Part shown: positions 7,593 through 64,000 of the stretch, in pieces
Position numbering within the stretch: position 1 is the first letter of the stretch
Layout: every line of letters begins with the position of its first letter
Assembly (NCBI GenBank): GCA_030584085.1
Contig: CP129490.1
Location: forward strand, 1,583,511-1,647,510
From: Melioribacteraceae bacterium
Lineage (GTDB): Bacteria > Bacteroidota > Ignavibacteria > Ignavibacteriales > Melioribacteraceae
DNA length: 64,000 bases
Reading direction: 5' to 3'
The notes under the pieces: model-generated
Database searches by the model: none
The model's input: the letters and a program-made list of their open reading frames with translations, nothing else
What the model was told of the DNA's origin: nothing
Made by a program: the position numbers and the translations under genes

Positions 7593-7766
7593 TTTTCGTA
7601 TTGTTTGAGATTTTGTATCACAACGTTTCACAAAGTAATCTCAAAGTCTCACAATGTAAACCATAATTATTATCTTTGTGAAACTCTGTGCCTGCCCGCC
7701 TCTGGCGTGGTGTACTTCGTGTAACCTTGTGACCTAAAAACTTTCAATTAATGGATTGAGAAAATA
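7593..7766. repeat. R1 repeat carrying a nested 20-bp element
   Basis: The spacer contains inverted and direct R1 words. At 7691-7710 a GC-rich 20-mer (cctgcccgcctctggcgtgg) interrupts an R1 unit between aaactctgtg and tgtacttcgtg. Removing the 20-mer restores the usual R1 phrase. Confidence 0.75.
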
Positions 7767-15862: not shown

Positions 15863-16593
15863 TTTCCATTTGAACTCTTGCCCGCCACTGGCGCGGTTGA
15901 GCACTCGTTATATTATTAATTCTTACAACTTACTTCTTAATTCCGATTGTTTACTCATTACTGATCACAGTTCACTGTTTTTTATAATTATTCGTGAATT
16001 CGTGGCTAAAGTTTTTCGCCACCAATGCACAAATTAAAAGTCGAATAAAAAATATTAATTAACAATTCAAATCCTGCCCGCCAGTTATTAAAGAGGGCTC
16101 AAAATTCATAATTTCGTAGCGAAGTGCGACTTTTGCATACCGCGATCCACAGCGGGGCGAAAATCCCGCCCTGGCGGGGAAAAATTCATCATTGAGTATT
16201 TGTTCTTAATTCTTGCTCCTTGCTTCTTAATTCTGTTTCCGAAACTGTTAATTGGATTAATTAAATCAATTTAATACTGTTAACTCATGACAGATTACTG
16301 ATCACAGCTCACTGATCACAGATTACTCATTACTGTTTTGCTAATGAATACAAAAATAATTACAAAGATTACTGGTTGAAACCAATTAAATAATTTGCGA
16401 ATTCTCGAATTAACGGATTAGCGAATTTTCAGTTAAAGCTATACATAAATTTTGAACTTTGTCCTTTGTCTTGTCCTTTGCTCCTATTCTTAATTCTTAC
16501 TACTTAATTCTGGCTTCTTATTCCTACTTTGTCCTTTGTACTTTTTTCTTAATAACTAAATTTTTATTTTGAACCAAATAGAAATAATATAGC
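15863..16593. repeat. 731-bp repeat spacer with gene relic
   Basis: Contains the 20-mer type element (cttgcccgccactggcgcgg) at about 15879-15898 and a GC-rich palindrome tcccgccctggcgggga at about 16164-16180. Further on are simple words (actgatcacagattactc), a relic of an rfbA 3' end at 16340-16393 and T/C words. No intact gene is seen. Confidence 0.75.
16340..16393 (+). pseudogene. Relic of a second rfbA 3' end
   Basis: Seventeen codons plus stop read [17 protein letters not shown], matching the last residues of rfbA at 14130-14183 ([17 protein letters not shown]). The similarity continues for another 70 bp past the stop through attcgaattaacgg-type words, so a whole gene end was duplicated or exchanged and the rest lost. 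Confidence 0.82.
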
Positions 16594-19189: not shown

Positions 19190-19475
19190 TTTTCAAATTA
19201 GCTTTCTGTTATAAATTAATAACTCAATAACTAAATAACCAAATAACAAAACACGACTTTGAACTCTTGCCCGCCTCTGGCGTGGTTGCCCTCTATCATT
19301 TGAAATTTATTCTTTGTCCTTGTTTTTAATCTCGATACTTGTGTCTCGATACTTTATACTAAAAAGATGGCTACATTGCTCAATTACCAAATTGCTAATT
19401 TATAAATTCGGTAATACGGCAATTCGCAAATTCGCTAAATTTATTTCGATACTTACATCTCGATACTAAATAAAG

Positions 19476-52035: not shown

Positions 52036-52141
52036 AATAAGCTGTTCATAAAATATTTCATAATTCAGCGCCATTCCGCGATACTTGCCCGCCTCAGGCG
52101 TGGTCTGCGAGCTTGCCCGGCTTTGGAGGGAAACAGTTTTT

Positions 52142-52717: not shown

Positions 52718-53861
52718 TTTAACCTCTAATCTGTTAAATAACTATAAATATAAATAAATGATATCTAAAAATCAAAATATTGTACTAATGATAAATTTAT
52801 CATAAGTAGAAGTGTAAAAGTGAAAATCTATTTTATTCTGGTGGTTAACTTTTGGTAAACTTTTAGTAAACACCACCGTATGTCCAATAATCTCCAACCC
52901 CATCATCCCGATTAATCCTTTGTAACCGCAGACTTTACCTCTGCGCTGTAATATAACTTCTCAACATTGTGATACTTTCTGACCGCTTATAACTTTCTTC
53001 TTTGAATTTTGAGCTTTGTACTTTTTCCTTGTACCACAGTCATTCCGGCATGTGCAGCGCTTCTCAACCCACACTAATCCATCAGTGACATCCCGCCCTG
53101 GCGGGACCTCTAGCCGTAATCCATACCCACACAAATAATCAACCCATAATTCAACCCCTCTGGGGTTGTAGGTCGTTTTGTTTATCATTTTTCTATTAAT
53201 ATTAAACCCCTAACGGGGTTTAAACTTTGTGAAACTCTGTGTGTACTTTGTGATACTCTGTGTCTCGCCTCTTCGCTTTTCAATTTACACTTTGGATTTT
53301 GATTTTGCCTTCCCATAATTCCATCTTTCCAGTCTTCCAACTTTCCATCATTCCAATATTCCAAAATCAATATCACCCCTTCGGGGTTCGTGCGATTTTT
53401 TTTCATTTGTATTTTATAAATGTTTCACCCCTTCGGGGTTTCTCACACAGTGAAATGCTGTTGTTAAAACTTTGTGAAACTCTGTGTGTACTCTGTGCTA
53501 CTCTGTGTCCCGCCTCTTCGCTTTTCAATTTACACTTTGGATTTTGATTTTGCCTTCCCATAATTCCATCTTTCCAGTCTTCCAACTTTCCATCATTCCA
53601 ATATTCCAAAATCAATATCACCCCTTCGGGGTTCGTGCGATTTTTTTTCATTTGTATTTTATAAATGTTTCACCCCTTCGGGGTTTCTCACGCTGTAAAA
53701 CGCTGTTGTTAAAACTTTGTGAAACTCTGTGTGTACTCTGTGCTACTCTGTGACCCGCCTCTTCGCTTTTCAATTTACACTTTGGATTTTGATTTTGCCT
53801 TCCCATAATTCCATCTTTCCAGTTTTCCATCATTCCTTCACTCCATCTTTCCAGCACTCCA
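52718..53861. repeat. Repeat spacer with 245-bp tandem array
   Basis: 1144 bp without a supported gene. The first part (52718-52915) is AT-rich and unremarkable; 53037-53160 holds the ggagcgcttctcc-related family and the tcccgccctggcggga palindrome. From about 53221 to 53835 a 245-bp unit recurs: the word cgcctcttcgcttttcaatt is at 53266, 53511 and 53756. Each unit includes an R1 stretch, attcc words and two ccccttcgggg hairpins. Minus-strand frames of 69-82 codons in the array are repeat translations. Confidence 0.85.
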
Positions 53862-58929: not shown

Positions 58930-59746
58930 CATATAGATTCTTGTTATACTTTGTTACGGAATTGAAACACACGGTTATTTGGAGCGCTTCTCCACTCACA
59001 CTAATCCAACAGCGACATCCCGACTTTGTCGGGACCTCTAACCGGAATCTATACCCACCACTTTGTCATTCCGAATGAGTGTATTCTACGAATGAGGAAT
59101 CTCAATCCCGTAATCACTGTCATTCCGGCAAGTTTCTAGCCGGAATCTATACCCACATAATTCAACCCCTCTGGGGTTATCGGATATTTTGTATATCATT
59201 TTTTTTCATACAGTACATCTTTCGGACAACTTTGTACCTGCCTCTGGCGCGGAAACTCTTTGTCCCTGCCTTTGAATTTGCCTCCCAACTTTCCAGTTTC
59301 CCATCTTTCCAATATTCCCAAACCAATATCACCCCTTCGGGGTTCGTGCGAGTTTTTTCATTTGCATGTTATAATAGCTTCATCCCTTCGGGGTTTCCAA
59401 CTCTGTGTCCCGCCTTTGATTTTCCTTTTGCCCTTTGCCGTTTGACTTTATACATTGTGCACTATTCCAATCATCAATTTATCTTTGTGGCACTCTGTGT
59501 GTACTCTGTGCTACTCTGTGTCCCGCTTTTTACTTTTCCAATTTTCACTTTACACTTTGCCTTTAGCTTTCCCATCTTTCCATTAATCCATCATTCCAAT
59601 ATTCCTGATGAGTGGAATGCCTTATCATTTATTCCACGTATTCACCGGGTCCAATCCGCCGTTATATTGATCTTTCGGAATGGCTTGTTTGTTTATTCTT
59701 TTACGCGATTTTTTTTATATTAGTACAATAATTATTGAGAAAGCAA
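58930..59746. repeat. Repeat spacer between Wzi-like gene and RelE module
   Basis: No gene is supported in these 817 bp. It holds the ggagcgcttctccactcaca family with a tcccgactttgtcggga palindrome (58979-59060) and an acccctctggggtt hairpin (about 59164). Further on lie a truncated 20-mer type insert (cctgcctctggcgcgg, about 59229-59246) in R1 context, two ccccttcgggg or ccttcgggg hairpins and attcc words. The 214-codon frame from 59079 is repeat translation. Confidence 0.8.
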
Positions 59747-60240: not shown

Positions 60241-61807
60241 TTATACATTAACTTTGTTCACTTCTTTGAAATCTATTTTACTCAACGGTCTAAAACCAAC
60301 CTTCGACAGCACATCTGCATTGTATCTGCAGACCTTACCTCTACGCTGTACTATAACCTCTCGACTTTGTGACCGCTTATAACTTTCTCCTTTCAATTTT
60401 GAGCTTTGGATTTTTCCCTGTACCACAGTCATTCCGGCCTCAGAGCCGGAATCTAGACAAAACATCCTGTCCTTTACCCAACGCTTCATTCCAACTTTCC
60501 AGTTTTCCATCTTTCCAATATTTCAAAACCAATATCACCCCTTCGGGGTTCATTATCATTTGTATTCGTCTGTTTTTTTATAAATCTTTCACCCCTTTGG
60601 GGTTTCTCACACAGTACATCTTTCGCCATTCTTTGTGGCACTCTGTGTGTACTTTGTGCCTGCCCGCCTTTGGCGCGGATACTCTGTGTCTTGCTTTTGA
60701 CTTTCCTTTTTCTCTTTGTCTTGTGCCACTGTCATTCCGGCATGTGGAGCGCTTCTCCACCCACACTAATCCAACAGCAGCATCCCGACTCGTCGGGACC
60801 TCTAGCCGGAATCTCTACCCAACGCTTCATTCCAACTTTCCAGTTTTCCATCTTTCCAATATTCCAAAATCAATTTCACCTCTTCGGGGTTTATTATCAT
60901 TTGTATTCGTCTGTTTTTTTTATAACTGTTTCACCCCTTCGGGGTTTCTCACACAGTAAATCTTTCGAACTTCTTTGTGGCACTCTGTGTGTACTCCGTG
61001 CTACTCCGTGTCCCGCTTTTGACTTTCCTTTTTCTCTTTGTCTTGTGCCACTGTCATTCCGGCATGTGGAGCGCTTCTCCACCCACACTAATCCACCAGC
61101 GACATTCCAACTCGTCGGGACCTCTAGCCGGAATCTCTACCCAACGCTTCATTCCAACTTTCCAGTTTTCCATCTTTCCAATATTCCAAAATCAATTTCA
61201 CCTCTTCGGGGTTTATTATCATTTGTATTCGTCTGTTTTTTTTATAAATGTTTCACCCCTTCGGGGTTTCTCACACAGTAAATCTTTCGAACTTCTTTGT
61301 GGCACTCTGTGTGTACTCCGTGCTACTCCGTGTCCCGCTTTTGACTTTCCTTTTTCTCTTTGTCTTGTGCCACTGTCATTCCGGCATGTGGAGCGCTTCT
61401 CCACCCACACTAATCCACCAGCGACATTCCAACTCGTCGGGACCTCTTAGCCCGAATCTATACCCAACGCTTCATTCCAACTTTCCAGTTTTCCATCTTT
61501 CCAATATTCCCAAACCAATATCACCCCTTCGGGGTTCGTTCTCGTTTTTCCATTTGCATGTTATAAATCTTTCACCCCTTTGGGGTTTCTCACACAGTAA
61601 ATCTTTCGAACTTCTTTGTGGCACTCTGTGTGTACTCTGTGATACTCTGTGTCCCGGTTATGCTTTTGATTTTTGTTTTTCTTCTGTCTCCTTACTCCTG
61701 AATTCTGAATTCTGTGTTCTTAATTCTGCTTCCCAAAATTCGCAAAATCATCCATTTTCCTTTATCTTTACTTCTTTAATACTAAACCATTAACAAGGAT
61801 TCTAATT
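60241..61807. repeat. Tandem ~322-bp repeat array upstream of wecB
   Basis: 1567 bp without a supported gene. The phrase acccaacgcttcattccaac recurs at 60476, 60817, 61139 and 61462 (spacing 341, 322, 323). Each unit carries attcc words, two hairpins of the ccccttcgggg or cctcttcgggg type, an R1 stretch, a T/C stretch, and the ggagcgcttctccacccaca family with a variable tcccgactcgtcggga palindrome. A 20-mer insert interrupts R1 at 60659-60678. The plus-strand frames of about 150-200 codons are repeat translations. Confidence 0.87.
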
Positions 61808-63135: not shown

Positions 63136-64000
63136 TTACTTGCGTTTTTTAACTAATTTCAAACGATTTCTCTTAGTTGTGTCTTTTTCTGTGCCCTTTA
63201 TGACACGACTTATCTCTTCTCCCATTCTTTTTAAGTCGACATTTAGATAGTATCTTTCTGTAGTTTTTATGTCCTTATGCCTCGCAATCTTCTGCACATA
63301 ATAGATATCAACACCATCATTCGCTAACCGAGTTAAAAAGGTTTTTCTTAACTCATGAATTGAATAATGGGGATATCCTTCTCTCTCCAAAAATCTTCTA
63401 AAGAATTTCAACGAATCAATTCTCTGATATGGTACAACCTTTCCAGATCTTTCCGCTTTACTATAATTAATTTCATAAAACAATTCTAGCTCCGGATGCA
63501 AAGGGATCTTATCAACTCTCCGTCCTTTTGTGTTTGTGACATAGAGTATCTTTCTTTTTAAATCAAAATCTTCATGCTTCAATCTGATTAATTCTCCGGC
63601 TCTTAATCCGGTCATGACTAATAACTTGATCGCTTTATATTGATCTCTGTCATGCACTCGAAGTTTGGTTAAGATTTCATCTAGCTCATAATCCGGTATT
63701 ACATTTATTCTTTTGGGTGTTTTATCTTTTATTGGGAATGGATTTGTAGTTACATATCGCTGCTTTTTATAATACTCGAAGATGATCCGCAGATGTCGAA
63801 AGATTATTTCAATTGTGTTCTTTGATTTCTCTCTTACTTCTTCTACAACTTTTCCTTCTTCATTTTTCTTCTTTACCTTTTTGAACTTGATGAACTTTTC
63901 AAATTCATCAACTAAATCTTCATCTACTTTGTGCAACTCAATATCGCCGGCAAAATTCAAAAATTTATCATGAACATAATTATACATCTCAATAGTTCTT
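63136..64000 (-). CDS. Tyrosine recombinase/integrase, 5'-truncated by window edge
   Basis: About 288 codons are visible and the frame is open to the window end, so the N-terminus is outside; the ATG at 63987 is probably internal. It shows a SAM-like core-binding domain (to about residue 105 of the visible part). The catalytic domain has all main tyrosine-recombinase residues: Arg in TGLRAGELIRL, His-x-x-Arg in SIHELRKTFLTRL, His in IARHKDIKTT, and the nucleophile Tyr in ERYYLNV. It should integrate a mobile element into the adjoining tRNA 3' end. The element extends to the right, beyond the window. Confidence 0.92.
   Translation of the reverse strand, partial: RTIEMYNYVHDKFLNFAGDIELHKVDEDLVDEFEKFIKFKKVKKKNEEGKVVEEVREKSKNTIEIIFRHLRIIFEYYKKQRYVTTNPFPIKDKTPKRINVIPDYELDEILTKLRVHDRDQYKAIKLLVMTGLRAGELIRLKHEDFDLKRKILYVTNTKGRRVDKIPLHPELELFYEINYSKAERSGKVVPYQRIDSLKFFRRFLEREGYPHYSIHELRKTFLTRLANDGVDIYYVQKIARHKDIKTTERYYLNVDLKRMGEEISRVIKGTEKDTTKRNRLKLVKKRK

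Follow-up and report, generated by a model that had tools for sequence, protein, structure and literature searches.

REPs associated with RAYT or TnpA-REP enzymes (the bulged-stem group) are short intergenic bulged hairpins that follow a conserved unpaired tetranucleotide (PMC8266576, PMC6006769, PMC3733652). The same sources state that REP families may have under 20 units (PMC3733652), that E. coli TnpA-REP depends on both tetranucleotide and bulge and cleaves single strands next to the REP, and that the spread of REP-type hairpins is poorly understood (PMC8266576). The REPINs of Pseudomonas are non-autonomous hairpin DNA thought to be moved by RAYT, and excision of single REPs was searched for in P. 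fluorescens but none was found (PMC3116915). The ends of IS200/IS605 elements (IS608 type) have a guide tetranucleotide 5' of a hairpin and cause no target duplication (PMC6006769, PMC2817692). GC clusters of yeast mitochondrial DNA are described as short GC-rich palindromic mobile inserts of AT-rich intergenic DNA that vary between strains (PMC4464245).

Here we analyse a stretch of 64,000 nucleotides (the window; positions without a contig name are counted within it) that sits in one 3.74-Mb contig of a Melioribacteraceae bacterium (genome G000). As judged from sequence alone, a 20-bp hairpin is cleanly spliced into several unrelated repeats of Melioribacter-like bacteria and relatives, with matching empty sites alongside, and behaves like an extremely small mobile element; the enzyme that moves it is unidentified. 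No description of such a 20-bp unit was found in the literature searched, and most of the subscription literature lay outside that search.

The REP criterion of a 20-40 bp, mostly intergenic palindrome is met by hairpins of 20-21 bp in repeat arrays (intergenic by context, without an ORF count), and that of a stem with a bulge (group 2 REPs) is met by a bulged T or C. Unlike REPs, the element has a CYTG tag and not GTAG or CGTC, it is carried by no RAYT, its copies appear few by a pattern that undercounts and are singlets, and its precise filled and empty sites are visible. None of 50 Y1_Tnp loci in 11 genomes gave a convincing case of a cognate RAYT flanked by copies. In contrast to the REPIN, whose unit is a doublet, the unit here is a single hairpin, and among 51 relaxed-motif copies in the sequence searched there was only one neighbour pair within 300 bp, in the same and not in inverted orientation. 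The element works like a REP but fails two REP features (tag and cognate gene), and it is no REPIN doublet. The hairpin of IS608 has an extrahelical base. Compared with IS200/IS605, our element lacks a transposase gene, has one hairpin instead of two ends and totals 20 bp, while the absence of a target duplication is shared. Classification as a MITE was rejected, as there is no target duplication and the two ends, tag and stem foot, do not form an inverted-repeat pair. GC clusters differ from it in being 30-80 bp long, often in tandem arrays and in another genome compartment (PMC4464245; no sequence relation was tested).

Filled and empty sites in the window

The intact element CCTGCCCGCCTTTGGCGCGG occupies positions 60659-60678 (forward strand), after CTTTGTG, in the first unit of a tandem array with a 322-bp period (60680-61656). 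The repeat that it interrupts, R1, is itself an array of 10-11 bp units, ACTYTGTGNN(N). R1 of the first unit, at 60632, is filled, whereas the R1 copies of units 2-4 (starts 60974, 61296 and 61615; 60974-61656, forward strand) are all empty, and the alignment of the filled unit against the empty ones differs by exactly 20 columns. This array is the cleanest and simplest local proof of filled and empty sites. An earlier note on this DNA had described the flanks of the element, gtgtactttgtg on the left and atactctgtg on the right, and their junction elsewhere without the 20-mer. Both were confirmed, the joined flanks matching at 53241-53262 (forward strand).

The note had also reported a second filled site at 7691-7710 (forward strand; CCTGCCCGCCTCTGGCGTGG, after ACTCTGTG in an R1 array). 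That site is real, but its 20-mer differs at 2 of 20 bases and it sits one repeat unit earlier (actctgtg^tgtacttcgtg, ^ marking the insertion point), and therefore its insertion point differs from that of 60659. The orthologue of this site is likewise filled in G002, so that the site is filled in two congeneric species. Further 20-bp copies, all on the forward strand and missing from the note, are found at 15877-15896 (CTTGCCCGCCACTGGCGCGG, after TTTGAACT), at 19266-19285 (CTTGCCCGCCTCTGGCGTGG, after CTTTGAACT) and at 52084-52103 (CTTGCCCGCCTCAGGCGTGG, with other GC-rich DNA downstream), together with a decayed copy at 59237-59252 (forward strand) that lies in an R1-like context and has lost four bases of its 5' stem arm. 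The joined flanks of the 19266 copy match 19 of 22 bases of a heptamer-type array; the joined-flank search recovered no matching empty site for the 15877 and 52084 copies. With up to 3 mismatches to the 20-mer, four copies were found in the window and none in 100 shuffles; the fifth (52084) and the decayed sixth came from other scans.

Length and boundaries of the insert

The joined-flank test was applied to 40 distinct motif copies: 11 bases from each side were joined, the excised length was varied from 15 to 25, and the best ungapped match was taken. Length 20 alone gave the best match, at 19 or more of the 22 bases, in 17 of the 40 copies compared to 3 of 318 control positions nearby (Fisher p 1.7e-15, although copies of one word are not independent). 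These 17 copies are spread over eight words and nine insertion positions. Another length was the sole best at the same threshold in five copies (16, 19, 21, 21 and 25; the 19 belongs to a G114 copy in a run of G), and no clear empty site was present for 23 of the 40 in the sequence searched.

A motif-free scan gave a similar preference. Within a 2.3 Mb pool, GC-rich hairpin inserts of 13-32 bp whose 9+9 flanking bases are found joined elsewhere amounted, once strands and overlaps were collapsed, to eight loci at length 20 (one with a deviating tag, CGCG) and to between zero and three at each other length. The exact 10+10 version, run on a smaller pool with both strands and overlaps counted, yielded 12 entries for length 20, yet length 12 had 10 as well. 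The searched sequence was chosen around elements, and these numbers are not genome rates.

The boundaries are fixed, at the C of CYTG on the 5' side and at the stem foot on the 3' side. The earlier note, which had argued that a 20-bp unit was precisely inserted or excised, had named a lack of fixed boundaries as one outcome that would refute it; the other, that R1 with the 20-mer is merely a longer inherited repeat, is ruled out by the interruption of eight unrelated words and by one orthologous filled/empty pair (see below). Both tests were run and neither refuted the proposal, and precise insertion of a 20-bp unit is well supported on the available sequences. No target duplication, for which the note had left room, was found, the difference between filled and empty sites being exactly 20 bp. 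A 1-bp duplication at first looked likely, as a G on the left went with a final G and an A on the left with a final A, and was discarded: the last inserted base pairs with stem position 1, and in the G320 word it can be G, A or T although the G in front of the insert does not change.

Anatomy of the element and its target

The element consists of the CYTG tag and, immediately after it, a hairpin whose 6-bp stem has one bulged pyrimidine on the 3' arm and closes a loop of 3-4 nt. The insert runs from the tag (5') to the stem foot (3'). Of four forward-strand elements that were folded, three gave the structure ....((((((...)))).)) and one lacked the two outer pairs. Stability of the window 20-mer is modest, as 27 of 200 shuffles fold equally well. 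Covariation was analysed in twelve inserts defined by their flanks and not by the motif (six from G320, four from G000, one from G151 and one from G032). Two stem pairs covary, pair 1 being T-A in six inserts, C-G in four, A-T in one and unpaired in one, and pair 3 being C-G in seven, T-A in four and unpaired in one; 97.2% of the cells are paired. The covariation score was 0.313 compared to 0.137 in shuffled data and was reached by 0 of 500 shuffles, which for related sequences is not a probability. Neither the pairs changed on both sides nor the number of pair types exceeded the shuffles in these twelve inserts. To the extent that such alignments can tell, covariation is stronger evidence for the hairpin than stability. 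The CYTG tag was present and the bulged base was T or C in all twelve inserts. With CGTC/GACG and a loop of 4 nt, a 21-bp variant in G002 (L262) still preserves the stem and the bulge. This conservation may merely reflect that the hairpin is a transposase substrate; its function for the host is unknown.

Target preference is loose. Of 28 contexts typed by hand, not all of which have a known empty site, 19 have a G just before the insert, and the contexts suggest, without proving, a preference near TGYG^T (loosely TGYG^TY, not universal).

Interrupted repeat words

Eight unrelated repeat "words" contain relatives of the 20-mer as inserts of exactly 20 bp. Among the contexts of the pattern matches, the unit interrupts repeat words at GTAGAGACTTGATTAA^TCAAGTCTCTAC, GTAGAGACGCCATTTA^TGGCGTCTCTAC, CATCTGCG^TTATCAGCG, CCGTG^TCGTCCGTGTG, GGGGCAGGG^GTGAGGTC, AATTG^CTAAATTGC, TTTCACG^TTTCACG, CTTAGTG^GTGATTC, GCGAGCGAAGCG^AAGCAATCTC and GCATTGACTGTG^TCAATGC.

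A pattern search of 164 genomes of the order gave 20 places in 9 genomes, and 1 with the reversed-pattern control; across 379 genomes of the class it gave 35 places in 15 genomes, and 7 places in 4 genomes with the control. Six matches (L089, L095, L099, L100, L103 and L104) look like chance, as they lie in GC-rich, probably coding DNA (by eye, without an ORF check), and those of them given the joined-flank test had no outstanding empty site at length 20. An array-anchored pattern run over a wider contig set returned nine stretches. Two Melioribacteraceae records (three copies) continue as an array, a record from Margulisiibacteriota without the bulge (L120) may also lie in one, and the remaining stretches were dismissed as chance by their appearance. 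The pattern undercounts; in G000 it had 11 matches, one of them a contig-end duplicate. Orientation relative to replication was considered in G000 only through sampled GC skew, which was too weak, and the copies were too clustered.

A second family of micro-inserts was seen in G032. It is 21 bp long (CCCGCCTTACGGACGGGTRAA), folds into a hairpin that has an A bulge and a tail at its 3' end, and is inserted at GTAGAGACGYTG^CATG(C/T)A(A/G)CGTCTCTAC (C15:98029-98077 and C24:43302-43350).

Word lengths and orthologous sites

Word lengths fall into two classes. In G000, the GTAGAGAYTTGATTAA word measures 28 bp at five sites and 48 bp at four others, not counting the contig-end duplicate, and its arm variants C/G and T/A were each found both empty and filled. 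In G320, the word GCGAGCG...AAGCAATC measures 20 bp in seven copies and 40-41 bp in six; the six filled copies have a single common insertion point, and one of them is adjoined by a filled copy of a variant word (GCGAGCTAAGCG). A further 43-bp match to the G320 word is something else and not a filled copy. In the seven congeners of G320 (genus g132), 0 of 30 word copies are filled with the element, 28 of them being 20 bp long, one 21 bp, and one 32 bp with a different 12-bp stretch. Separately, a 24-bp GC-rich hairpin insert, ATGTGCCCGCCTTTGGCTGGGACG, was observed at GCGAGCGAAGCG^AAGCAATCT, the position within the GCGAGCG word at which G320 has its 20-mers.

The same genus provided one orthologous pair, filled in G320 (C10:121375) and empty in G321 (C12:6745). 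The surrounding DNA is collinear at 74-83% identity, and the nearest 19 and 17 bases are identical but for the 20 bp. The sites tried in the genus of the window yielded no clean orthologous filled/empty pair: the one at 3510738 is filled in both strains, a deletion between two copies confounds the one at 296458, and at the G151 C29 site a different hairpin has been replaced. In this last comparison (G151 C29:21881, L130, versus G000 C1:3544683-3545416, L162) the whole intergenic hairpin is swapped, the filled GTAGAGAC word of G151 lying where G000, G001 and G002 have another hairpin in common.

These data bear on two explanations other than repeated insertion. It could be that all words were filled ancestrally and that the hairpin was deleted exactly, and IS200-type excision is indeed seamless. 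The sequence of a single site has no polarity, and the 7691 site is filled in two congeneric species, both of which would fit such a loss. In g132, however, only G320 has filled copies (0 of 30 elsewhere), so gain is simpler than loss; moreover, no direct repeats flank the insert, and the insert breaks up what is, in the empty 28-bp GTAGAGAC word, a perfect palindrome. We regard exact loss as very improbable.

Alternatively, the element was inserted rarely, and words with or without it spread by recombination or gene conversion. Copies of a word do have one insertion point in common (six in the G320 word), the hairpin common to three genomes is replaced by a filled word in G151, and the 174-bp intergenic region around the 7691 copy (7593-7766) is 98.3% identical to G002, compared to 85-86% for three neighbouring ORFs. 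Two other intergenic stretches nearby are 89% and 96% identical to G002, and the region 7593-7766 may consist of conserved or exchanged non-coding repeats. As the sole account, spread with the words nevertheless leaves the same 20-mer in eight unrelated words unexplained, and it needs extra changes since both arm variants of the GTAGAGAC word occur empty and filled; we consider it improbable. Within one word family the matter is different: given the identities around 7691, copying of the word is probably a second spreading route, and copies inside such a family may have spread together with it.

Y1 transposases and a possible mechanism

The earlier note had called the mechanism unknown. It can be narrowed, as the unit is of a recognisable kind, a bulged hairpin like the substrates of REP and IS200-IS605 systems. 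A tetranucleotide, a bulged hairpin and no duplication are together the anatomy of Y1 HuH enzyme substrates, a comparison of structure only. By this analogy, Y1-type transposition is our best guess for the mover, and a guess that could as easily prove wrong as right; it is inferred, without cleavage data and without observed movement. Y1_Tnp genes were present in all 11 carrier genomes tested, with ten matches to PF01797 in G320 and five in G000. No convincing element copy was found near any of 50 Y1_Tnp loci (5 in G000 and 45 in ten other genomes), one weak structural match near a Y1 locus (L358) being taken as chance, and no cognate RAYT among them was convincing. Therefore, either a Y1 enzyme acts in trans, or the cognate copy has been lost or lies outside the sequence searched, or the mover is a different one. 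Counting further against Y1, G323 has nine Y1 matches, yet 12 of its 12 word copies are empty.

Many Y1 loci have other hairpins of their own. The five Y1_Tnp genes of G000 (C1:864195, 348612, 1267365, 3728963 and 3127486) are surrounded by different REP-like hairpin families, and hairpins of the CACCCC..GGGGT type near them resemble pieces of the window's tandem repeats.

The lack of a convincing cognate copy at all 50 loci leaves room for another precise process without Y1, be it template switching at replication hairpins, integration by reverse transcription of a small RNA, or an unrelated recombinase. Several inserts are located within the loop of a host stem-loop or next to it (GATTAA^TCAAG, GCCATTTA^TGGC and GCATTGACTGTG^TCAATGC), which suits hairpin copying. 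Template switching would not be expected to produce the same 20 bases each time, though, and the constant ends, tag and bulge in unrelated contexts point to specific recognition; we think such a process unlikely, without dismissing it. What probability remains beyond Y1 and another precise process falls to the spread of words with their passengers, to precise loss or to something unforeseen.

The 20-mer belongs to a family of micro-elements, each a single hairpin of 20 bp (rarely 21 bp). Under the proposed Y1 mechanism, the unit is inferred to move as single-stranded DNA, with hairpin and bulge recognised and the tag serving as a guide, and the mover would be a Y1 HuH transposase, of the TnpA-REP / IS200 type, that works in trans. 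An element already in a repeat word would also be carried along by copying or recombination of that word. The strongest form of this proposal, which we advance as tentative and somewhat short of an expectation, is that a lone 20-nt hairpin is a complete transposing unit that brings its own guide tag and hops as a single strand into stem-loops and repeat arrays, precisely and without duplication. If this is true, the unit is smaller than the REPIN and GC-cluster units in the literature compared, and a lone REP-like hairpin, not only the REPIN doublet, is able to move. Both kinds of site, filled and empty, are resolved to single bases here, in unrelated contexts, in a tandem array, within one genome and between species. 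This provides a direct biochemical test with known ends, a set of targets and candidate substrates, and illustrates how nested insertions build up in the intergenic word arrays of these bacteria.

Surroundings of the element

The genes of the window are of polysaccharide/capsule type, and a tyrosine recombinase lies at 63136-63987. Matches to the R1 27-mer (up to 3 mismatches) are concentrated there, 9 of the 11 in the G000 genome lying inside the window (1583511-1647510 of the contig), as do all five copies of YTGCCCGCCNNNGGCGYGG in G000. The contig ends of G000 overlap (C1:8418-10960 corresponds to 3739834-3742376, with 2543 of 2543 compared bases identical), and therefore the genome is circular and was left untrimmed.
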